NCBI GenBank assembly: GCA_028875335.1
Contig: JAPPEF010000377.1
Span: forward strand, 1-13,603
Origin: Gemmatimonadota bacterium
GTDB lineage: Bacteria > Latescibacterota > UBA2968 > UBA8231
DNA length: 13,603 nt
Reading direction: 5' to 3'
A model generated the notes under the pieces. The model did no database searches, had not been told where the DNA came from, and saw only the letters and a program-made list of their open reading frames with translations. Shown piece by piece: positions 2,937 to 13,603 of this stretch. How positions within the stretch are numbered: position 1 is the first letter of the stretch; each line of letters starts with the position of its first letter. Made by a program: the position numbers and the translations under genes.

Positions 2937-4070
2937 ATGGGTTACCCCGCAATTGGCCAATCGGCCCCCGCGATCGAGGTCAGTGAATGGATTAGCGGTA
3001 AGCCAGAAGAGGAAAATGGATTTTCTGGCAAGAATGTAATCCTTGAGTTCTGGGGCACTCATTGTGGACCGTGTATTGCCGCCATTCCCCATCTCAATGA
3101 ACTCGTCGCCACGTATGGCAGTAAGGACACCCTTTTCGTCTCGTTGACCCGTGAAGAACCCCACATCATAGAACGCTTCCTAAAAAAAAGGCCGATAAAG
3201 GGCGGAGTCGCCACAGACCGAGAGGATGCAACGTTCAATGCCTATGGCATACAAAGTATCCCTCATACCTTTCTCATAGACTCACAAGGCCTACTTCGTT
3301 GGCACGGTCATCCAGCTTTTTTTACCGCGGAATTGTTAGAGGAGTTTCTCCAGACGGACAACGTGCCCAAAGTATCTGAACCAACCACCTCTTCAGAAAC
3401 CGTACCGGCGGTCACTCCCGATACCCTGTTTTTTCTAAAAATTGATCGAAATGCGTCCGATCGTAGAGAGGCCAGTTTGGGTATTGGCGACGAGCAATTC
3501 GAGGCAGAATTTTACGGGCATCGAGTGATCGATGTGATTCGCTGGCTATTGGATCGTCCCCTCTCCCGGATGCGGATTGAAGGGGAAGAGCCAGAAGAGC
3601 TGTTGGACGTTGAGTTGCGTTCTTTCCATCCCCTGAAAGTAAAGGCGGCAAGAGAAAGAGCGGTAGACGTGCTGTGCGATATGTTTGGCATCGCGATTTG
3701 TCGTGTTGTGGAACAACAGGAAGGATGGGCGCTAACCTGTTCTAACCCTCAATTGACGGATATGTCTGACTTGGGCGGCGGCATGTCCACGGGCGGGTTC
3801 AATAATAAGTTTACCGGCTCCAATCTCACGATAGATCAGCTTACCGATTACCTTGAGAATTCGATGAAGTGCATATTTTTCAACGAAACACATTTGGCAG
3901 GGAAATATGACTTTGTATTGCCGGTTAAAACCTTTGATCAGACACGGCGAGCTTTAGAAGAAGAGTACGGCATCAAAGTCGAGTCGGCGGTACGCGAAGT
4001 AGAAATAGTGATTCTGCGCATGACGGATGCCGCAATCGGATGCACCGGGGACTCGCCACCACGTCCCTGA
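2937..4070 (+). CDS. Thioredoxin-like (TlpA/ResA-type) domain fused to a DUF3738-like (TIGR03435) domain
   Basis: A 377-residue two-domain protein. Residues 5-145 form a TlpA/AhpC-TSA thioredoxin-like domain: FWGTHCGPC with the CxxC pair at C43 and C46, the SIPHTFLID segment with the likely cis-proline P109, and a YGI element before it. Residues about 165-370 resemble the DUF3738/TIGR03435 domain known mostly from Acidobacteria and Planctomycetes: an FTGSNLTIDQLTDYLE segment, an LAGKYDFVLPV segment (family TGLxGxYDFxL) and a closing EEYGIKVESAVREVEIVIL segment. TlpA-like proteins usually work outside the membrane as thiol-disulfide oxidoreductases, but no signal peptide or membrane segment is visible at this start, so it would be cytoplasmic unless exported another way. 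The start has a good Shine-Dalgarno sequence. The methyltransferase follows after three bases. The function of DUF3738 is unknown. Confidence 0.82.
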   Translation: MGYPAIGQSAPAIEVSEWISGKPEEENGFSGKNVILEFWGTHCGPCIAAIPHLNELVATYGSKDTLFVSLTREEPHIIERFLKKRPIKGGVATDREDATFNAYGIQSIPHTFLIDSQGLLRWHGHPAFFTAELLEEFLQTDNVPKVSEPTTSSETVPAVTPDTLFFLKIDRNASDRREASLGIGDEQFEAEFYGHRVIDVIRWLLDRPLSRMRIEGEEPEELLDVELRSFHPLKVKAARERAVDVLCDMFGIAICRVVEQQEGWALTCSNPQLTDMSDLGGGMSTGGFNNKFTGSNLTIDQLTDYLENSMKCIFFNETHLAGKYDFVLPVKTFDQTRRALEEEYGIKVESAVREVEIVILRMTDAAIGCTGDSPPRP

Positions 4071-4771: not shown

Positions 4772-7267
4772 TTACGTGGGGCGCAGGATGGCACCGCCCC
4801 GCCGGACCACGTCGAAGGCAAACTCCCGGTCACCAGCGCGCAGCCGGAACCTATCGCCTTCCTGTGCGACCCGAGCCTTCGCCGAACGGGTGCAAAAGGC
4901 AAGGACGAGAACATCGTCATCCGTGCCCGCCACTATACGCGTTGACGCCTCAGCGGCACCCGGCAGAAAGCTGACGAGGCTACCGGCAGCCAACCCAGAA
5001 GGCGCGAAGGGCACCTCCTCCGTCCGCAGTCGAAGGTCCTTTCCAAACACCGTCATCACCTCCACCACGCGTGGTCCAGCACCAAGACGGGCGCGACTCC
5101 TACTCAGACCCCGCAGGTCCACCGGATTCAGCTTATAGGCCAACTCACCACCACCCATCTCCGGTCCCAAATCCCTAGCCGAATCCACAGTCAGCCGCCG
5201 ACGGCCCGGACAGCGCAGGTCAATGAGAGCTATATCGCAGTCCGCGGAGACGCCGGATGTCTGCACGGCACCGCCGAAGGTGAGGGTGGAGTGAGGCCAC
5301 ACGTAAAAGGTGCGCGGTTCCTCCCGCGAGGCGAGTCCCTGAGAGTCGCGGCCCACCTCGCCGAAGGTAGCCGGATCGTCGAGACGCTTCGCCTCGCCAT
5401 CGACAGCAATCTCCATCCACGGCCTGCCCGCGCGCCGATTGAAGCCACCCCACCCGATCTCAACCTCATGCCAAACTCCAGCGTCCACTCTGCCCGGCGC
5501 ACACAAGGTCACCTCGTGGCCATTCTGACTCTGCACACTGAATCGCATCCTACCGTCCGCTTCAGCAACGAGAGCAAAGGTGTTAACTCTCGTCCCACCG
5601 ATCCCACCGACGCCGTTCCCCGTGTTGAACAACACCCGAGGACCGTCCTCGTCCCCCCGCAATCGTAAGCGCAAGCGCAGACGGCCTCCATTGGGACAGA
5701 ACCAAGGCCGGGCCTCATACTGCAAGGCGTCGCCCCCACTCAGCCGGACGATGCCATCGACGAACCGGAGCCCGCGCGGCCGACGCCGCAGCGCCACGAG
5801 AACAACCGGGTGCTCCCCGGTCAGCAGCCAGTATTCCTGCTCGGTGCGCCAAGCGGAGACGCGCAACCGCTGCCAATCCTGCGTACTCTCCAGACCGCCT
5901 GGCACGGCGACAGTCTCGTTCTGGCCGCCCACGCAGGGCAAGCTGCCGCAACTCACCGGCTGAGCCTCGGCAGCACTGATCGCGCGTAGCACAGGATGCC
6001 CCGCCCACTGCACGTGCAAGTTCATAAAGCCGTGGGCCACATCGCCGTCGTACCCACTGACCCAGAGGATCGCCGCGTCGGGTCCGTGGCCGCTGCGCAT
6101 CACGGCAGAGCGGCCGCCACGCGCTGCAAAACGACGCGCCAGCGGAGCCGGGCGGCGTTGCTTGGCCGCCCGGAAGTCGGGATCGTAAAAGCAGTAGGCG
6201 TAGGGCCCGTAGGAGATCATGCACTCCGCGGTCGAGCCTTTGACGCCACCACCGAAGCGGTAGATCCGGCCTAGGCGCGGGTCGGCGAGAGCAGCGTCGC
6301 GCAGCATCTCGTCGCCAGCCTCTTGGGCCAGCCGCAGGAGCGCGGGAGAGCAGGCGTTGAGCTGGGTGCCGAGCACGTTGGCGTTGGCGGGATAGTAGAG
6401 CTGGTCGGGAATCTTGCGCGGTGCTGCCCAATGAGCGCGGAACCAAGTCAGCGGTCGCCGCAGCCGGGCCGGAACCTCGCGGCCAAGATCAATACCAGTG
6501 ACATTGCGCAGCGCGTCGGCAAACTGCAGGAGCCAGAGGTTCTCCCAAGGCCAAAAGGAAGGGCCGTCCACCGGCTCACCAGCGGGGCCGCAGCCGTGGG
6601 GCAGAATGGCGGCGCGGAAGCGATCAATGACCGCCTGTACCCACGCCTCCGCCTTGGGGTGCTCACCTAGCAGATGCAGAGCGGCCACGCCAAAGTGCCC
6701 ATTGTCCACGACGGCGTGGTGCCCACCTTCCTCCGAGTGGCGTTGCTCCTCCACATCCGGCCACCAGCGCTCCAACTGTCGCACGAGACAGGCGCGGACC
6801 TGACGCTTCTCAGTGGTCGATAACTCCCCGTCCAGCAGGTCAAGGGCCAAGGCAAAAGCCTGCATGTAGCGATTGGCCGTGTAGAAATGTTCCTCCACCC
6901 GGTCGTCGTGGTCCCAACCAGCAGTCGCCCGTAGCCAAGCGCGGGTCCGGTCGAGCCAGCGCCGGTCACCGGTCAACCGCCAAGCAAAGGCGTAGTTCTC
7001 GATCAAAGCCGTGGCCTGCATGGCCGTGTAGAAGGTCAGATAAAGCTGGTGGTACGGGTGAGGACTGTCCGGCCGTCGCGGAATCCGCGGCCACGGCCGC
7101 TGTCCAGCATACAGCTCACAGTCGTCTAGAAGATTGGAGAGAATACGCCGACGCACGGGGTCAGTCGGCGGCTCGAAGCAGAAGTGGAGATCGTCGTAGG
7201 GCCGCAGCAGCCGGGGCCGCTCTTGGCGGATGACCGGGAGTAGGTCCTGTTTCGGAGAGTTGGGCAT
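4772..7267 (-). CDS. Heparinase II/III-like polysaccharide lyase with an inserted LamG-like domain
   Basis: An 831-residue protein from the ATG at 7267. The open frame continues upstream to 7819, but that part runs antisense to the DNA methyltransferase and is not credible. Residues about 40-390 look like an alpha-helical toroid: YTANRYMQA, the GGHHAVVDNGHFG region near residue 190 and GPSFWPWENLW near 240. From about 395 comes a beta-sandwich start resembling the heparinase II/III C-terminal domain (GYDGDVAHGFMNLHVQWAG). Residues about 530-680 resemble a LamG/concanavalin-A-like module (alternating LRLRLRLRGD, WHEVEIGWGG, WMEIAVDG). Such enzymes cleave uronic-acid polysaccharides by beta-elimination. 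No signal peptide is clear, so it may act on imported oligosaccharide. The start overlaps, as TGATG, the stop of a decayed GNAT reading frame, with no clear Shine-Dalgarno sequence. Substrate unknown. Confidence 0.75.
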   Translation of the reverse strand: MPNSPKQDLLPVIRQERPRLLRPYDDLHFCFEPPTDPVRRRILSNLLDDCELYAGQRPWPRIPRRPDSPHPYHQLYLTFYTAMQATALIENYAFAWRLTGDRRWLDRTRAWLRATAGWDHDDRVEEHFYTANRYMQAFALALDLLDGELSTTEKRQVRACLVRQLERWWPDVEEQRHSEEGGHHAVVDNGHFGVAALHLLGEHPKAEAWVQAVIDRFRAAILPHGCGPAGEPVDGPSFWPWENLWLLQFADALRNVTGIDLGREVPARLRRPLTWFRAHWAAPRKIPDQLYYPANANVLGTQLNACSPALLRLAQEAGDEMLRDAALADPRLGRIYRFGGGVKGSTAECMISYGPYAYCFYDPDFRAAKQRRPAPLARRFAARGGRSAVMRSGHGPDAAILWVSGYDGDVAHGFMNLHVQWAGHPVLRAISAAEAQPVSCGSLPCVGGQNETVAVPGGLESTQDWQRLRVSAWRTEQEYWLLTGEHPVVLVALRRRPRGLRFVDGIVRLSGGDALQYEARPWFCPNGGRLRLRLRLRGDEDGPRVLFNTGNGVGGIGGTRVNTFALVAEADGRMRFSVQSQNGHEVTLCAPGRVDAGVWHEVEIGWGGFNRRAGRPWMEIAVDGEAKRLDDPATFGEVGRDSQGLASREEPRTFYVWPHSTLTFGGAVQTSGVSADCDIALIDLRCPGRRRLTVDSARDLGPEMGGGELAYKLNPVDLRGLSRSRARLGAGPRVVEVMTVFGKDLRLRTEEVPFAPSGLAAGSLVSFLPGAAEASTRIVAGTDDDVLVLAFCTRSAKARVAQEGDRFRLRAGDREFAFDVVRRGGAILRPT

Positions 7268-7314
7268 CAGGGGCGGATGGGACGGATGGTATCCTCGAAA
7301 AATCAACGAATCAG
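7267..7314 (-). pseudogene. Ghost of a GNAT gene 5' end (codons 2-8) and leader, upstream of the heparinase
   Basis: Read on the minus strand from 7293, codons give D-T-I-R-P-I-R, then P and TGA, with the TGA (7269-7267) overlapping the heparinase ATG. The same seven residues begin the intact GNAT gene at 11193. Bases 7273-7294 match 11170-11191 at 20 of 22 positions, and both mismatches are third-position synonymous changes in the GNAT frame. The ATG is missing; the intact copy has a GGATAC-TAT-GGATAC direct repeat across its start whose collapse would remove it. Leader similarity continues patchily to about 7314. The whole middle of the gene is absent. Confidence 0.6.
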
Positions 7315-7347
7315 CGCAACGCGTTTTACACGCTAAATAATCGCCGC

Positions 7348-7380
7348 CCGTCAAGCAACGGCGAGGAGAGTGCTTGACGG
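7348..7380. promoter_or_regulatory. Perfect 10-bp inverted repeat upstream of the methyltransferase
   Basis: CCGTCAAGCA (7348-7357) and TGCTTGACGG (7371-7380) are exact reverse complements separated by 13 bases. The right arm contains TTGACG (7374-7379), a plausible -35 hexamer, so a protein bound here would sit on the promoter. A hairpin in RNA reading left, a role in ending leftward transcription or a recombination site are alternatives. Confidence 0.4.
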
Positions 7381-7402
7381 AGTTCGGCGGTTCGTATTCA
7401 AT
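7374..7402 (+). promoter_or_regulatory. Candidate sigma-70-type promoter for the R-M operon
   Basis: TTGACG (7374-7379) and TTCAAT (7397-7402) are 17 bases apart and 115 bases before the chosen methyltransferase start. The -35 lies in the 10-bp repeat and the -10 in the 9-bp repeat. The -10 is a weak match. Inferred from sequence only. Confidence 0.3.
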
Positions 7403-7417
7403 ATATTTATATTGAAT
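7396..7417. promoter_or_regulatory. Perfect 9-bp inverted repeat overlapping the candidate promoter
   Basis: ATTCAATAT (7396-7404), four bases, ATATTGAAT (7409-7417). The A+T-rich palindrome lies on the presumed -10 region of the methyltransferase promoter and looks like an operator. Control of R-M genes by such operators is usual (C proteins, or the methyltransferase itself), but no C-protein gene is present here. Confidence 0.4.
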
Positions 7418-7516
7418 AGTGTATCCACTGTCCCGAATGGTCTGTTCCTTCCATTCCGACGACTCCGCCGCAGCAAAGGCGGGCACGGAAAGCAATCCAG
7501 AGAGGTTTCCATTACC

Positions 7517-8695
7517 ATGCCGCCCATTGCGAATAAATCCGCTGGCACATCGCAAAGAGATCAAACCGCGTCTCGGCTGAGCTCGACGAAATCCTTGTCG
7601 CTTGAGCCAAGAAACCCAAGCGATCCGGCCTTTAGATTTATCGACTTGTTCGCCGGTATTGGCGGGATGCGCCGAGGCTTTGAACCGTTGGGCGGAAAGT
7701 GCGTGTTCACCAGTGAGTGGAACAAGCATGCCCAACTCACCTACGAAGCTAACTACGACTGCGATCACGAGATTGCCGGGGACATTACGCAGATTCCAGC
7801 AGATGAAATTCCGCCACACGACCTGTTACTGGCGGGCTTTCCGTGCCAGCCATTTTCGATCGCGGGCGTGTCAAAGAAGAATGCGCTCAAGCAGCCGCAC
7901 GGGTTCCGTTGTGAAGCACAGGGAACCCTGTTTTTCGATGTGGCGCGGATCATTGAGGCGCATCGGCCTCGTGCTTTTTTTCTCGAAAACGTCAAAAACC
8001 TAGCCAATCACGACAAGGGCCGAACATTTCGCATAATCCACCGGACACTAACCGAGGAACTGGGCTATCAGGTTCACTCAAAAGTAGTGGATGCCCGTTC
8101 GTGGTTGCCACAACACCGCGAGCGGATTTTTATTGTCGGCTTCCGCGAGCCCAACTGGTTCACTTTTGACGATTTTGTTGTTCCCGATCCGCTCAAGGGG
8201 CCACGGCTCAAGGCGATCCTGCACCCTGAAGACGGCAGCGAACCGGCTGAAAGCCCATACACGCTAGGACCAAAAGCAAAGATTGCCGACAAGTACACGC
8301 TCTCCAACCACCTGTGGGACTATCTTCAGCGGTATGCTAAAAAGCACCGGGCCGCCGGCAACGGTTTCGGTTTTGGGCTTGTTGGCCCAGAGGATAGCTC
8401 GCGCACCCTCTCGGCCCGCTACTACAAAGATGGATCCGAAATTCTCGTAAAACGCGGACGGCAAAACCCTCGCCGCCTGACGCCTCGGGAATGTGCTAGG
8501 CTCATGGGTTTCGACAAACCGGGTGAAAGCCGATTTGTGATTCCGGTTTCCGATACGCAAGCCTATAAGCAATTCGGAAATGCGGTAGCCGTCCCATGCG
8601 TCGAGGCCCTAGCGCATCACATTGCGCATTGGCTAGGCATCGAAGAAGACGGCGACAGAGCGTTGCCCCCAATGCGGTTGCCTCTTTTTGGCTGA
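7517..8695 (+). CDS. DNA (cytosine-5) methyltransferase, Dcm/M.EcoRII-like, presumed CCWGG
   Basis: 392 residues from the ATG at 7517, preceded by AGAGG 11 bases upstream; the open frame also allows a GTG at 7370. All the key C5-methyltransferase motifs are present: motif [18 protein letters not shown], motif [13 protein letters not shown] with the catalytic cysteine C110, motif VI ENVKNL, motif [15 protein letters not shown], motif [16 protein letters not shown] and motif [12 protein letters not shown]. Wording outside the motifs ([40 protein letters not shown]) is that of Dcm and M.EcoRII, which methylate the inner cytosine of CCWGG. Compared with those it lacks the roughly 85-residue N-terminal region (motif I starts at residue 37 here) and a short insertion before motif IV. 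It methylates host DNA against the partner endonuclease encoded 53 bases downstream. No vsr gene is adjacent. Specificity is inferred by similarity. Confidence 0.93.
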
Positions 8696-8748
8696 CAGCT
8701 TTTATACGGGCGTTCAAGCAACGATGTGGTGGGATACGGCAAAATAAA

Positions 8749-10056
8749 ATGGCCCCGACGGATCTGAAAAATTGGCTCGACAAGCACTCTAATCCCAACT
8801 CCATCTGGTACGCAAAACGTCTGTCGGGAAACGACACGCTAGCCAACGGAACCCATCAAGCTGGCCCATACATTCCAAGGAATTTTCTATTTAGTGTTTT
8901 GCCGATGCTTGACAGTCCGCAAACCCTAAATCCAGACGTTCGGTTCGACCTCTATATTGATTCGCACGCTGATCACAGGCGTGTTCGGGCTATTTGGTAC
9001 AACAACAAATTCCACAATGGTACGCGCAATGAGACTCGCCTAACTAATTTCGGCGGTTCCCAATCGGCCCTGCTTGATCCAAGTAACACGGGCGCGTTGA
9101 GCATATTCGCGTTCTCCTTGGATGACCAAGGTACGGCGACTGAGTGCCACGTGTGGGTCTGCCGTTGCGAAACCGAAGAAGAGTTGGTTGAAGAGCGCAT
9201 TGGCCCAGTAGAACCCGGCAAGTGGACGATCTGGCCGCCACATTATTCGATGTATCCAAATCTCTTCGGGTCCACCACGCAAACGCAAGTAGATTGCTGG
9301 CTAGCTCCCAGAGAAATCCCTCCAGAGTGGCTAACGACGTTCCCGACTGGAATAGAGCTCATTGATAAGACGATCGAGTTGCGGCCAGACTTATCCCTCG
9401 GTCCTGACGACCGGTTGCTAAGCCGTCGAGACTGTGAGTTTGAGTTGTTCCGCAGTGTTGAGGAAGCAGTAGAGCTCCCGGCAATTAAGGACGGGTTCGA
9501 CAGCATGGATGAGTTCATAGCCCAAGCACAGACCATCCTCCAGCGCCGTAAGTCGCGTTCGGGACGGTCTCTCGAACTTCATGTACACAAAATTTTCACA
9601 GAGGAAGGGCTTCGCGAAAACCAAGATTTCGCGCACCAGCAAGAGGCTGAACCGGGCCGCCGTCCCGACTTTCTATTTCCTTCGGCGGACACCTACAAGG
9701 ACATGGCATTTCCGGAAGAACGGCTGCGAATGCTTGCGGTCAAAACCACTTGCAAAGACCGTTGGCGTCAGATTCTCAACGAAGCGGATCGCATAAAGCG
9801 CAAGCACCTTTTGACTCTACAAGAGGGAGTTTCGGAAGAACAGTTTCGAGAGATGAAAGACGCTGGAGTGCAACTCGTCATTCCGACTCCTCTGATCGCT
9901 AAATTTCCAACGTCAGTCCGGCCGCATCTCGAAACGTTAGACCGCTTTATCGCCGAAGTGCAGGGCCTCAACCTAGGCACTAGTAGCGCAGAGTGCGGTC
10001 TGCCGGGGACTGGGAGCGGAAGTAGGGATCGTCGAGGGGCCGCTCGTGGCGGATGA
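8749..10056 (+). CDS. EcoRII-like type II restriction endonuclease, presumed CCWGG, with aberrant C-terminus
   Basis: 435 residues from the ATG at 8749, where the product matches the EcoRII N-terminus (W-A-KRLSGNDT, HQAGPYIP); the longer frame from 8596 overlaps the methyltransferase. Both EcoRII domains are present: an N-terminal effector-DNA-binding domain (about 1-170; TRNETR, DPSNTGAL, VWVC) and a C-terminal PD-(D/E)xK nuclease domain (about 270-408; RRKSRSGRSLELH, RPDFLFPSA with D307, LAVKTTCKDRWRQIL with K332 and K336). Wild-type EcoRII is about 404 residues and ends soon after FIAEL-GL. Here homology stops at FIAEVQGLN (codons to 9972), and about 27 extra residues follow, encoded antisense to a heparinase-gene remnant, before a chance stop at 10054-10056. 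The nuclease core is intact, so activity is possible. Gene order is M then R in one direction, unlike the convergent plasmid EcoRII genes I recall. Confidence 0.92.
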   Translation: MAPTDLKNWLDKHSNPNSIWYAKRLSGNDTLANGTHQAGPYIPRNFLFSVLPMLDSPQTLNPDVRFDLYIDSHADHRRVRAIWYNNKFHNGTRNETRLTNFGGSQSALLDPSNTGALSIFAFSLDDQGTATECHVWVCRCETEEELVEERIGPVEPGKWTIWPPHYSMYPNLFGSTTQTQVDCWLAPREIPPEWLTTFPTGIELIDKTIELRPDLSLGPDDRLLSRRDCEFELFRSVEEAVELPAIKDGFDSMDEFIAQAQTILQRRKSRSGRSLELHVHKIFTEEGLRENQDFAHQQEAEPGRRPDFLFPSADTYKDMAFPEERLRMLAVKTTCKDRWRQILNEADRIKRKHLLTLQEGVSEEQFREMKDAGVQLVIPTPLIAKFPTSVRPHLETLDRFIAEVQGLNLGTSSAECGLPGTGSGSRDRRGAARGG

Positions 10057-10102
10057 CTCGAATCGGAACCTGTTTCGGCGAGCTGGACAGACGCACAGGC
10101 AT
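9980..10102 (-). pseudogene. Truncated 5' end of a second heparinase-like gene
   Basis: An ATG at 10102 overlaps the stop of the Eis-like GNAT gene as TGATG and opens a 40-codon frame ending in TAG at 9980-9982. Its product, with SSPKQ, VIRHERP, then LDDPYF and P-D-R, aligns with the start of the complete heparinase at 7267 (NSPKQ, VIRQERP, YDDLHF, P-D-R) over its whole length, with in-frame length differences. Nothing more of the gene remains; beyond about 9985 the sequence is the endonuclease gene. It is most simply the 5' stub of a heparinase gene cut off by the R-M cassette. Confidence 0.7.
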
Positions 10103-11193
10103 CAGAAGTGGTCGGGCTCCCAGAAGATGACCTCGCGGCGCGGAAACCACTCCTTAAGTTGGCGAACTTCCCCAGCCTCCAGCGAGATCCCACGAGCGCG
10201 AAGGATAGGGTCTATATCGCGGCCGGAGGACTCGCCGAACAAGAGCCGACACATCAGATCAACCGGCAGCCCGCGAACCGATCCTGCCGCTTCGGGCACG
10301 GCCTTGGCAACCAGCGCGCCGAGGTCGAAAGGGAGGGCCATCATCGAACTGTCGCCCGTGATCCCCAAATCGGCGTCAGCAGTAGCGACTAGGGCATCGA
10401 CAAAAGGGTGGCTGTGTGGAATCCCGCCTTCGATCTGCGTCACTCCAGCCGCCGCGCACTCGTCGAGCAGGTGCTGCACGAGGGCATCGAGAGCCGGGCC
10501 GCTCTCGTAAGCAACTTCATACACCTCAACGCCGTCGTCGTCGCTCTCCCAGTTGATGTACCCGCTGAGTCCCGCCGAATCACGGACGACGGCGGTGGGC
10601 AGGACCCCCCGCACGCGGGAGGGAGCGTAGTCCCAGTACGGACGCGGACGCAAAAGACTGCCGCTGCGGCCGGCATTGTAGCGTTGGTAAAGCGCTACCG
10701 TCTCCTCCAAGTCGCGGCTCTCGTCAAACGGCAGCACCTCAAGTGCGGACTGCCCCGGCTGCGGAGGGCGGTGCAGCTTGGCGTGAAATCCCATGAGCGG
10801 AACACAGCTCCAGCCGAGACGCCGGTAGAAGCGCGCCGGAATCATCGTGAACAGCAAACCCAGATCGTAGCCATCGTCGCGCATGTACTCAGCCGCATGC
10901 TCCATGAGCCGCGTAGCTATGCCGCGTTGCCGGTAGTCGGGATGTGTGGTGACGCCGCCGATGCCGCCCATGCGGACGGGCGTGGTGCCGAGGTGGACCC
11001 AGCGGTCCCAGATGCGCAGCGTCGATACAATGCGGCCTCCAACGACGATGACCGGCGTCTGCGACGGGCACCAAGTCGGATCGCCTTCCATGTAGCCTCG
11101 GTAGCGCTCGTGGCCCTCGGGGTTGTGCACGGCGCAGAGCAGGTCGATGAGTTCGTCGAGTTCCGACTCGCGGATGGGGCGAATGGTATCCAT
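10102..11193 (-). CDS. Eis-like GNAT family N-acetyltransferase
   Basis: A 363-residue protein. Residues 1-130 form a GNAT domain: the acetyl-CoA-binding motif A is GGVTTHPDYRQRGIATRLM, with RxxGxA at 88-93, and FYRRLGW follows near residue 125. The length, a second less obvious domain and a C-terminal part with little similarity to single-domain acetyltransferases fit the Eis-like group (tandem GNAT plus a sterol-carrier-like C-terminal domain). Members transfer acetyl groups to amines or lysines; the acceptor here is unknown. The start codon follows AGGGA five bases upstream. The gene starts 23 bases after the ceramidase-like gene ends, and its stop overlaps the ATG of the truncated heparinase, so the original order was ceramidase-like, acetyltransferase, heparinase. 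Its first eight codons recur as a ghost at 7273-7293. Confidence 0.82.
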   Translation of the reverse strand: MDTIRPIRESELDELIDLLCAVHNPEGHERYRGYMEGDPTWCPSQTPVIVVGGRIVSTLRIWDRWVHLGTTPVRMGGIGGVTTHPDYRQRGIATRLMEHAAEYMRDDGYDLGLLFTMIPARFYRRLGWSCVPLMGFHAKLHRPPQPGQSALEVLPFDESRDLEETVALYQRYNAGRSGSLLRPRPYWDYAPSRVRGVLPTAVVRDSAGLSGYINWESDDDGVEVYEVAYESGPALDALVQHLLDECAAAGVTQIEGGIPHSHPFVDALVATADADLGITGDSSMMALPFDLGALVAKAVPEAAGSVRGLPVDLMCRLLFGESSGRDIDPILRARGISLEAGEVRQLKEWFPRREVIFWEPDHF

Positions 11194-11216
11194 AGTATCC
11201 CTGACAAACTAATCAA

Positions 11217-11990
11217 TCAGTTCAGTCGCCGCAGCCGGATCATCCGCAACACCCAATAAGCTCCCAAGGCAGCGAACAAATGCTTGCATGTATGACCGCT
11301 GACCAAGCCTCCGGCCGCGTACAAGGCTTGGTCAAATACCTCGGCGGCCTTTGCAAGCAGATAACACAGACCGGCAATGTAGAGGTCAGACCCACGCGTG
11401 TACGGCGACGGCAGTAGGCGCACCATGAGGGGCACGAACAGAATCGGATAGGCTTGGGCGACGATGTAATAACGGAGATCGCCGGCTCCCGCCTGCTCAG
11501 TATAATGCCAGTACAACACGCTAAAAAGACCAAAGGCAATCAGCGGCAGTAAGGTGATAATGCCAGCGCGCCGGTCCAAGCGCTCGGTAATCGCAGTAGC
11601 GAGAAACGCCATAAAGGCAATGCTCATCGGCAGGCGATCCCACAAGAGCGTTCTGTTGCTGGGGGCTAGGTGGTAGTAGGTGGAGCCGAGGCCAACCAGC
11701 GCCACCGCGAGGAAGAGAATCTGATACGCCAGCGAATCGACCGGGCGCACAAACGCCTGCTGCTCGGGATCTGTGGCAAGGCGGAACACGACGCTGAATC
11801 CCCATAGCCCCACCAACAGAAAGGGCAGATTGGAGATCACGTTCAAGCAATGGGGGATGCCCAACACAGTGCGCTGATCGGCGAACTGGTGATAGGCGGG
11901 GTCTTGCGGAATGGGTGCCTGCAGGAAAATGACCGCCCAAAAGGTGATCGTCAGATAGGCGAGAATCCGGAGACGGTAATTGCGTTTCAT
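11217..11990 (-). CDS. Alkaline-ceramidase-like (CREST superfamily) membrane protein
   Basis: 257 residues from the ATG at 11990, chosen because AAGGTGA lies just before it and it clears the upstream gene by 7 bp; an ATG at 12038 would add 16 residues and overlap that gene. About seven hydrophobic segments are visible. Residues 28-60 (PQDPAYHQFADQR, NVISNLPFLLVG), GSTYYHLAP (102-110), WDRLPM with D118, and SGHTCKHLF with H233 and H237 match the metal-site pattern of alkaline ceramidases and the wider CREST superfamily: a serine-x-x-x-His pair, an aspartate, and HxxxH. Members hydrolyse amide bonds in ceramides or related lipids inside the membrane. Whether this bacterial homologue acts on ceramide is not known. 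It is the third gene of a tightly packed minus-strand chain. Confidence 0.82.
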   Translation of the reverse strand: MKRNYRLRILAYLTITFWAVIFLQAPIPQDPAYHQFADQRTVLGIPHCLNVISNLPFLLVGLWGFSVVFRLATDPEQQAFVRPVDSLAYQILFLAVALVGLGSTYYHLAPSNRTLLWDRLPMSIAFMAFLATAITERLDRRAGIITLLPLIAFGLFSVLYWHYTEQAGAGDLRYYIVAQAYPILFVPLMVRLLPSPYTRGSDLYIAGLCYLLAKAAEVFDQALYAAGGLVSGHTCKHLFAALGAYWVLRMIRLRRLN

Positions 11991-13056: not shown

Positions 13057-13070
13057 AGTGCTTAAGCACT
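13057..13070. repeat. Perfect 14-bp palindrome across the stop of the helix-turn-helix gene
   Basis: AGTGCTTAAGCACT is its own reverse complement and contains the TAA stop (13064-13062). It could be an operator-like site or part of a leader hairpin. No T-run follows, so it is not a standard terminator. Confidence 0.4.
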
Positions 13071-13352
13071 TAACGATTGCGCCACTGTCTCGGGATTTTC
13101 CGACGCAATCTTCAGCAGGGCCCGAGCAGGCCCTTCAGGTCGGCGGCGTCCCTGCTCCCAATTCTGCAAAGTAGAGACGCTCACACCAATCATCAGGGCG
13201 AATTCAGATTGCGATTTATTCAGTTTCTTGCGAATCATCCTGATATCGGCGGGATCCATCTGGATTCTGCGTCCTGGCTTCAGCTTGCCGCGCTTGATCG
13301 CCCCGGCTTGCTTGACGCTGGATACAAGTTGGTCAAAGTCGCGCTCATTCAT
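13062..13352 (-). CDS. NadS/HigA-like helix-turn-helix protein (antitoxin-type)
   Basis: 96 residues from the ATG at 13352, chosen over an ATG at 13376 because AAAGGAG lies eight bases before it and family members begin MN-x-x-F. The N-terminal DFDQLVSSVKQAGAIKRG segment and the GR-I-M stretch lead into an XRE-type helix-turn-helix at residues 37-70 (IRMIRKKL, SQSEFALMIGVS, TLQNWEQGRRRPEG). This is the layout of NadS and HigA-type antitoxins, which bind their own promoter and neutralise a RelE/HigB-like toxin usually encoded just upstream. No such toxin is seen: upstream is the end of an acetyltransferase gene, 48 bases away. It may be an orphan antitoxin, or paired with that gene. A candidate attC-like element lies downstream. 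Confidence 0.85.
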   Translation of the reverse strand: MNERDFDQLVSSVKQAGAIKRGKLKPGRRIQMDPADIRMIRKKLNKSQSEFALMIGVSVSTLQNWEQGRRRPEGPARALLKIASENPETVAQSLSA

Positions 13353-13400
13353 GCCAGATACTCCTTTACGAGTCAAGGTCTTGTACTAATTAGGCACCAG

Positions 13401-13603
13401 TCACAGATTCTTTACCATGATGTGCCTAGCGATCTCGAATCCTTCGCGCTCAAAGAAGGCGGTCGCATCTGCATTGAACGACCAGACATCTAACCCCAAT
13501 CGTCGAATACCAACATCCTTCGCCAGCACTGTAACCGCAGAAAACAGTGCTGTAGCAACTCCCTTTCTCTGATGCGAGCGGTTGACCGACACGTGGAGAA
13601 TGT
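13401..13603 (-). CDS. GNAT family N-acetyltransferase, C-terminal part (gene continues beyond window)
   Basis: The frame is open from the right edge of the window to the TGA at 13401-13403, about 66 residues. It contains HVSVNRSHQRKGVATALF, with the acetyl-CoA-binding Q/RxxGxA motif, and a C-terminal NADATAFFEREGFEIARH segment, both typical of GNAT acetyltransferases. The internal GTG at 13592 is not the start, as the reading frame continues through it. It is transcribed toward the helix-turn-helix gene, 48 bases away. GNAT enzymes are common both as integron cassette genes and as tRNA-acetylating toxins; only the missing N-terminus and the upstream context could tell which. Confidence 0.8.
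   Translation of the reverse strand, partial: ILHVSVNRSHQRKGVATALFSAVTVLAKDVGIRRLGLDVWSFNADATAFFEREGFEIARHIMVKNL

Follow-up and report, generated by a model that had tools for sequence, protein, structure and literature searches.

An EcoRII-type restriction-modification pair between unequal copies of a GNAT operon in a Latescibacterota genome carries a probable scar of an earlier site

Organization of the locus

Restriction-modification (R-M) genes are thought to move often, and to our knowledge the site that such genes leave behind is usually unknown. Here, we describe an EcoRII-type R-M pair that carries a probable scar of another locus, within a stretch of 13,603 nucleotides (nt) hereafter called the window: contig JAPPEF010000377.1 of assembly GCA_028875335.1, from an uncultured Gemmatimonadota bacterium (Latescibacterota; UBA2968; UBA8231 in GTDB). 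The pair consists of a C5-cytosine DNA methyltransferase (M) and a restriction endonuclease (R) on the forward strand. It lies between two unequal copies of a reverse-strand operon segment that encodes a GNAT acetyltransferase and a heparinase-like protein (hep). Read along the reverse strand, the order is an intact GNAT gene, a TGATG stop/start junction, a stub open reading frame (ORF) of hep, the oppositely directed R-M pair, a GNAT ghost, a second TGATG and the full hep gene (Table 1).

Table 1. Features of the locus, in positions of the window (aa, amino acids)
Feature	Position	Strand	Remarks
hep, 'heparinase'-like gene, intact, 831 aa counted from the TGATG start	4772..7267	-	5' end is the left copy of the shared segment
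Left copy of the hep 5' end	7190..7267	-	beta-like leader MPNSPKQDLLPVIRQERPRLL; ATG at 7267, TGATG retained
GNAT ghost	7270..7317	-	operon leader and about the first six codons, no ATG, joined to the TGATG junction
Spacer between ghost and scar, about 30 nt	7318..7348		no assigned origin; matches in the loci compared do not exceed 13 nt
Scar of isomerase promoter region	7349..7398		GAACCGCCGAAC..CCGTCAAGC..GCTTGACG; cut directly past its -35
M, C5-cytosine DNA methyltransferase, 392 aa	7517..8695	+	PF00145
R, EcoRII-type restriction endonuclease, 435 aa	8749..10056	+	PF09217, PF09019; 1na6
hep stub, 40-codon ORF	9980..10102	-	alpha-type leader MPVRLSSSPKQVPIRVIRHERP; hep similarity stops near 10010
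GNAT acetyltransferase, intact, 363 aa	10102..11193	-	PF13527
Leader of the right GNAT copy, intact	11194..11245	-	

A first-pass annotation, made from the window alone, had described a same-orientation GNAT-heparinase segment on both sides of the pair (about 7190-7314 and 9985-11220), with the GNAT reduced to a ghost on the left, the heparinase to a stub on the right, and the TGATG junction kept in both. This anatomy is borne out. A repeat search and BLASTN aligned 7213-7266 with 10036-10089 as a direct repeat (42 of 54 nt identical, E 2e-8), the ghost segment with the right copy (20/22, E 1e-4) and a third block (29/38, E 0.002). The comparison with chance that had been named beforehand as a test gave a best local alignment score of 52 for the left segment against a maximum of 41 in 1000 triplet shuffles, and 34 against 28 for the ghost alone (again 1000 triplet shuffles). 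'Heparinase' is a loose name for the 831-aa protein, whose only Pfam match, to DUF4962, is below the cut-off (22.1 bits; cut-off 28.7). Among the matches listed, its best relatives, itself aside, are 92–95% identical (P0002-P0014). The hep frame is open further upstream (7267-7819, reverse strand) across the ghost, the scar and the antisense strand of M, and for this reason gene callers may give longer products of 904 or 1015 aa.

Identity of the restriction-modification pair

M matches PF00145 over profile positions 1-323 of 324 (E 1.8e-79, scored on a longer frame from 7370) and carries GFPCQPFS and FLENV, which we take to be methyltransferase motifs. R unites the EcoRII-N effector domain (PF09217, E 1.2e-54) and the EcoRII-C catalytic domain (PF09019, E 3.1e-63) in a single protein and aligns over residues 6-407 with the structure of R.EcoRII (1na6, E 3.2e-104). 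The region PDFLFPS..LAVKTTCKDRW, conserved in that alignment, is presumably the catalytic one, and the roles of its single residues are likewise our assumption. Both frames are open. Judged by its sequence, with both R domains, an adjacent C5 methyltransferase and the conserved region, the pair is an EcoRII-type (Type IIE-like) R-M system, as its earlier label of EcoRII-like implied, and it would be expected to cleave and methylate an EcoRII-like site, presumably CCWGG. A fused N-terminal repressor domain as in M.EcoRII was not found in M, in which about 40 aa precede motif I and residue 29 is paired with chain residue 79 of 3me5. This domain is a regulatory trait and is not required for membership of the nuclease family.

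The Pfam scan of 14 window proteins revealed no transposase, integrase or other recombinase, and no tRNA was found beside the pair, which speaks against an element borne by an insertion sequence (IS) or an integrase. A phage origin of R was rejected on a best phage record of only 33.7% over 89% of R, together with one 5.6-kb viral contig at 66%, and a plasmid origin on a best plasmid record of only 61.2% over 93%. Of 64 genomes searched within the phylum, three have a homologue of R, at 83% in G012 and as partial matches at 42–43% in the other two. The six relatives G001-G006 have none by the same search, which does detect the one in G012.

The right junction is not peculiar to this contig. 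The last residues of R, about 15, are encoded opposite the hep-like part of the stub, as a read-through tail. Among the ten R relatives listed at ≥82%, this tail is common only to P0121 and P0122; the other eight are 412–424 aa long with different ends. Two further protein clusters have the same join, which is thus unlikely to be chimeric.

Empty and tandem sites in related genomes

A search of genome contigs with the GNAT gene retrieved six loci (L001-L006) from metagenome-assembled genomes (MAGs) labelled Latescibacterota/Latescibacteria or Gemmatimonadetes, 86–97% identical in GNAT, whose sources we take to be sponge symbionts. Five are complete (L001-L005) and L006 stops inside GNAT. The window GNAT is 92–95% identical to those of L001-L004 and 86% to that of L005. 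Related genomes had been proposed as the place to look for an empty site, and such sites exist: four of the five complete loci (L001, L002, L004, L005) have a single GNAT followed by hep, without R-M genes. The more distant G023 also has a single GNAT-TGATG-hep, and therefore the single operon is probably the ancestral state. The fifth locus, L003 of G003, is a tandem without R-M genes: its first GNAT is followed by about 44 nt from the beginning of hep, then by the tail of the ceramidase-like gene located upstream, and then by another GNAT and hep. Duplication is thus not confined to the site that holds the insert, and given its differing end points the L003 tandem may be an event separate from that of the window. 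In G012 (L043) the GNAT is followed by about 30 nt from the beginning of hep, and hep itself had no match anywhere in that genome.

Allele classes of the flanking copies

By their leaders the aligned hep starts divide into an alpha class, with L001 and the stub of L003, and a beta class, with L002, L004, L005 and the second copy of L003; 17 diagnostic columns within the first 75, nine of which are one indel, tell them apart. The right stub of the window has the alpha state at 11 columns and the beta state at one, and the left copy is alpha at one and beta at 14. Over columns 3-72 the stub matches L001 at 58/70 without gaps and the window's own left copy at 46/58 with 12 gap columns. The end of the stub, we think, has decayed or is part of the R-M side. 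In alignment the ghost leader agrees with the window's right copy at 33/51 positions and with the GNAT leader of G012 at 40/51, so that G012 is the closer of the two; a match of 48 nt to the same G012 leader has 85% identity. The right GNAT leader is identical at 45 to 51 of 52–53 positions in six of seven relatives' leaders, and to L005 at 44/53 with 8 gap columns. The flanking copies thus appear not to go back to one target sequence. The two GNAT copies of G003 differ from each other at a synonymous divergence (dS) of 0.319, and the window GNAT differs from the single or first copies of five relatives at dS 0.25–0.38; by this measure the copies in G003 have diverged as far as species do. Different leader classes and the divergence within G003 suggest that the flanks predate this insertion or stem from different strains, and did not arise as a simple duplication when the pair came in.

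The first-pass annotation had offered two alternatives, a long target duplication made by the R-M insertion or insertion between older tandem operons, and had suspected older paralogues. That suspicion agrees with the separate allele classes and with the dS of 0.32 in G003, and it is insertion at or between older tandem units that is favoured. In the other alternative, the incoming pair would have duplicated about 1.2 kb (leader, GNAT and hep 5' end) and the left GNAT would have been deleted later. The geometry matches, and there are similar cases in related genomes: in G001 an HsdM/HsdS-like insert lies between direct copies, 137 nt long (127/137 identical), of the isomerase 3' end; in G004 the isomerase 5' end recurs over 139 nt (130/139) at a Gp49-like and HNH insert; and in G002 a C5-methylase island, part of the survey below, has a 49-nt duplicate at 92%. 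Yet the window's copies are not each other's nearest relatives, a tandem without R-M genes exists in L003, and spanning repeats are about as frequent at control loci. We consider this course of events improbable. Unless one copy was replaced later, this insertion is unlikely to have made the two copies simply by duplicating a long target; allele classes and the G003 tandem both speak against it.

The survey behind the last of these points compared 58 methylase stretches from six genomes with 60 controls from five. All 38 matches of three families at E <1e-20 in G002 and G012 were taken, plus 14 C5 and six N6 loci from G001, G003, G004 and G005. Of 23 C5 loci, 20 entered the comparison; excluded were three in G005 that were partial or weak and the remaining N6 and N6/N4 matches in G001, G003, G004 and G005. 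The cases of G001, G004 and the window were kept out of the counts, having been found before the survey, the first two by chance. A contig end cuts five stretches short (L162, L171-L174), and L081/L113, L091/L112 and L077/L101 overlap. Direct repeats spanned 4/58 methylase and 3/60 control loci (p 0.71), and with other settings 3/58 against 3/60, 1/58 against 3/60 and 7/58 against 5/60. The C5 methylases by themselves gave 4/20 (p 0.06), a post hoc subset chosen after the data had been seen. A first survey had found 3/38 against 2/40, or, with looser settings, 5/38 against 5/40 at any distance and 2 against 3 within 6.5 kb. A general link between methylase genes and spanning direct repeats is not shown by these counts. 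Irrespective of R-M genes, direct repeats of at least 50 nt were present in 12/38 methylase and 13/40 control stretches of 18 kb. Direct copies that flank an R-M pair need not come from its insertion, because repeats of this length occur in these genomes with or without R-M genes.

A scar of the isomerase promoter

Homology between the R-M regions of the window and G012 covers window positions 7349-10006 only, at 87.4%. In G012 the pair is flanked by an AAA ATPase/DUF4276 gene pair, adjoining a long uvrA-like gene (named by eye), and by a xylose-isomerase-like gene (PF01261). The last 50 nt on the M side of this homology are the promoter region of the isomerase gene. Window positions 7349-7398 match G012 over 50 nt at 92%, G004 over 48 nt at 90% and G003 at 87.5%, with weaker 47-nt matches in G001 and G002 and none in G005. 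In G001-G004, genomes without an EcoRII-type R, the segment stands upstream of the isomerase at 79–90% identity to the window. As a pattern with up to three mismatches it occurs at one site per genome in five of six relatives, always the isomerase promoter, and a control pattern occurs in none of the six. A dispersed repeat is excluded as its source by this single site per genome. The isomerase promoter of G012 reads TTGACG-17-TATACT; the window segment breaks directly after TTGACGG and is followed by about 30 nt and then by the ghost. These approximately 50 nt from another locus are a new point, which could not be seen from the window alone.

Since the scar matches a single-copy isomerase promoter and the G012 pair sits at that very place, the pair of the window most likely stood at the isomerase site earlier and then moved. 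A doubtful alternative is that the 50-nt segment belongs to the R-M module itself and that the isomerase promoters of G001-G004 hold the remnant of a lost R-M system, as might be suggested by the upstream 38 nt, which have no match at the isomerase in G005 and in the outgroup G008. The -35 end (TTGCTTGACG), however, is retained at the isomerase in G005 too, which keeps no other part of the segment, and the segment continues directly into the isomerase promoter. Even so, the pair would still have occupied the isomerase site.

Proposed history of the locus

In the account that we prefer, the pair would have left, in the lineage of the window, a site among defence genes upstream of a xylose-isomerase-like gene and entered the GNAT-hep operon. 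There it would have landed where two unequal copies of older date met, the upstream one made up of GNAT and the hep 5' end and the downstream one of GNAT and the whole of hep. Beside its methylase gene it would have brought about 50 nt from the isomerase promoter region. Its own 3' end would have been cut, with the result that the nuclease frame now continues across the antisense strand of the hep stub, and the downstream GNAT would afterwards have been deleted to a ghost. We infer the direction of the move, the order of events and illegitimate recombination as the means from the compared sites. We give the whole account, a relocated pair at the join of older unequal operon copies with a donor-site scar, a probability of roughly 0.6.

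Several observations weigh against it. The isomerase sites with which the scar could be compared are those of relatives, and the left join is seen in the window alone. The window hep stub extends over at least about 90 nt, against about 44 nt in G003, so that the tandem of the window and that of G003 may have arisen separately. When all aligned columns are counted, the stub is roughly equally distant from the L001 start (87/116) and from the window's own left copy (77/104). Leader length is scattered on the hep tree, where, at poor resolution, 7 short rows require 7 changes; recombination among alleles is therefore likely too and could imitate old paralogy. Finally, dS between the window and G012 is 0.21 for M and 0.32 for R, comparable to but lower than that of the GNAT (0.45) and of the ceramidase-like gene (0.38), so that lateral exchange after the split is also possible. 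Descent with the lineage and exchange after the split are both compatible with the history of the pair relative to G012.

Exchange between strains is also the core of another explanation, in which the pair and one flank came together from another strain, by homologous recombination on one side and illegitimate recombination on the other, the two copies being the donor and the recipient allele. The presence of two allele classes would then require no ancient paralogy; G012, which has the nearest locatable R-M pair, also has the leader nearest to that of the ghost; and the duplicate copies in G001 and G004 have diverged too. A donor with R-M genes beside GNAT-hep has not been seen, the G012 pair being at another site in a genome that lacks hep, and the G003 tandem without R-M genes keeps the same alpha-then-beta order. 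We regard this explanation as unlikely.

The preferred account can be extended with a tentative joint reading, itself more doubtful than the account as a whole. The pair would have stood divergently upstream of the isomerase with a shared promoter, jumped with its outward half and the -35, and now face hep as part of a hybrid promoter. The hybrid promoter over the left join was recognized by eye only; a promoter scan reported none over this join. If this reading is true, the jump replaced the lost operon start of hep with a hybrid promoter, R-M relocation can rewire a neighbouring gene, and a readable donor-site barcode is left behind that could be used for tracing R-M movements in genomes. 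One bacterial family allows a comparison between a donor-like site, targets that are empty, one that has only the tandem and one that is filled, which makes the order and the direction of the move testable. Among the titles and beginnings of abstracts listed in literature searches, there is no account of this locus or of any donor-site scar.

Neighbouring genes and similar loci

The insert of G001 (L067, G001:C105:48000-66000, reverse strand 8476-14047) holds an HsdM-like gene (PF02384), an HsdS-like gene named by eye and a third gene between the 137-nt copies. In that of G004 (L066, G004:C49:120000-136500, 9685-11813), the isomerase promoter and 5' end stand on both sides of a Gp49-like gene, its helix-turn-helix (HTH) partner named by eye and an HNH gene, and there are also pieces of the uvrA-like gene. 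The latter gene (by eye; 1902–1966 aa) is found in G012 (L044:1081-6789), L067 and L066 and has an apparent internal duplication, its parts aligning mutually at about 64–78%. In the C5-methylase island of G002 (L102, 4497-10026) the 49-nt copies are from the 3' end of a neighbouring gene; in G004 one copy of this sequence lies 13 nt from a downstream gene. Elsewhere in the window, positions 2937-4070 encode AhpC/TSA-redoxin and DUF3738 domains in one protein, and 13062-13601 an HTH/MqsA-antitoxin-like gene, adjoining a further GNAT truncated by the window end.

Comparison with known systems

R-M genes are enriched in sponge symbionts and have been found in sponge Latescibacterota, according to excerpts of PMC8163846 and PMC12993501. 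The window pair resembles EcoRII in both domains of R (residues 6-407) and in having the C5 methyltransferase gene immediately upstream on the same strand. It differs in the read-through tail of R and in the only about 40 residues ahead of motif I in M, M.EcoRII having a fused repressor domain by the excerpted text of PMC12707154.

Integration of an R-M plasmid by illegitimate recombination at 1–3 bp of identity is described in excerpts of PMC3031569. The window is similar in its ragged joins and in the lack of an IS or integrase in the 14 proteins scanned. That integration was between plasmid and chromosome in the laboratory, whereas the joins of the window are old and their exact bases unreadable. 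The movement of R-M genes was known already, and long target duplication with R-M genes was described by Nobusato et al. 2000, as cited in the same excerpts of PMC3031569. The likeness to that mode, so far as those excerpts describe it, lies in an R-M pair between long direct copies of a target and in related empty sites; the window differs in that its copies are of different allele class, that a tandem exists without R-M genes, and that DNA of a previous site has apparently been carried along.

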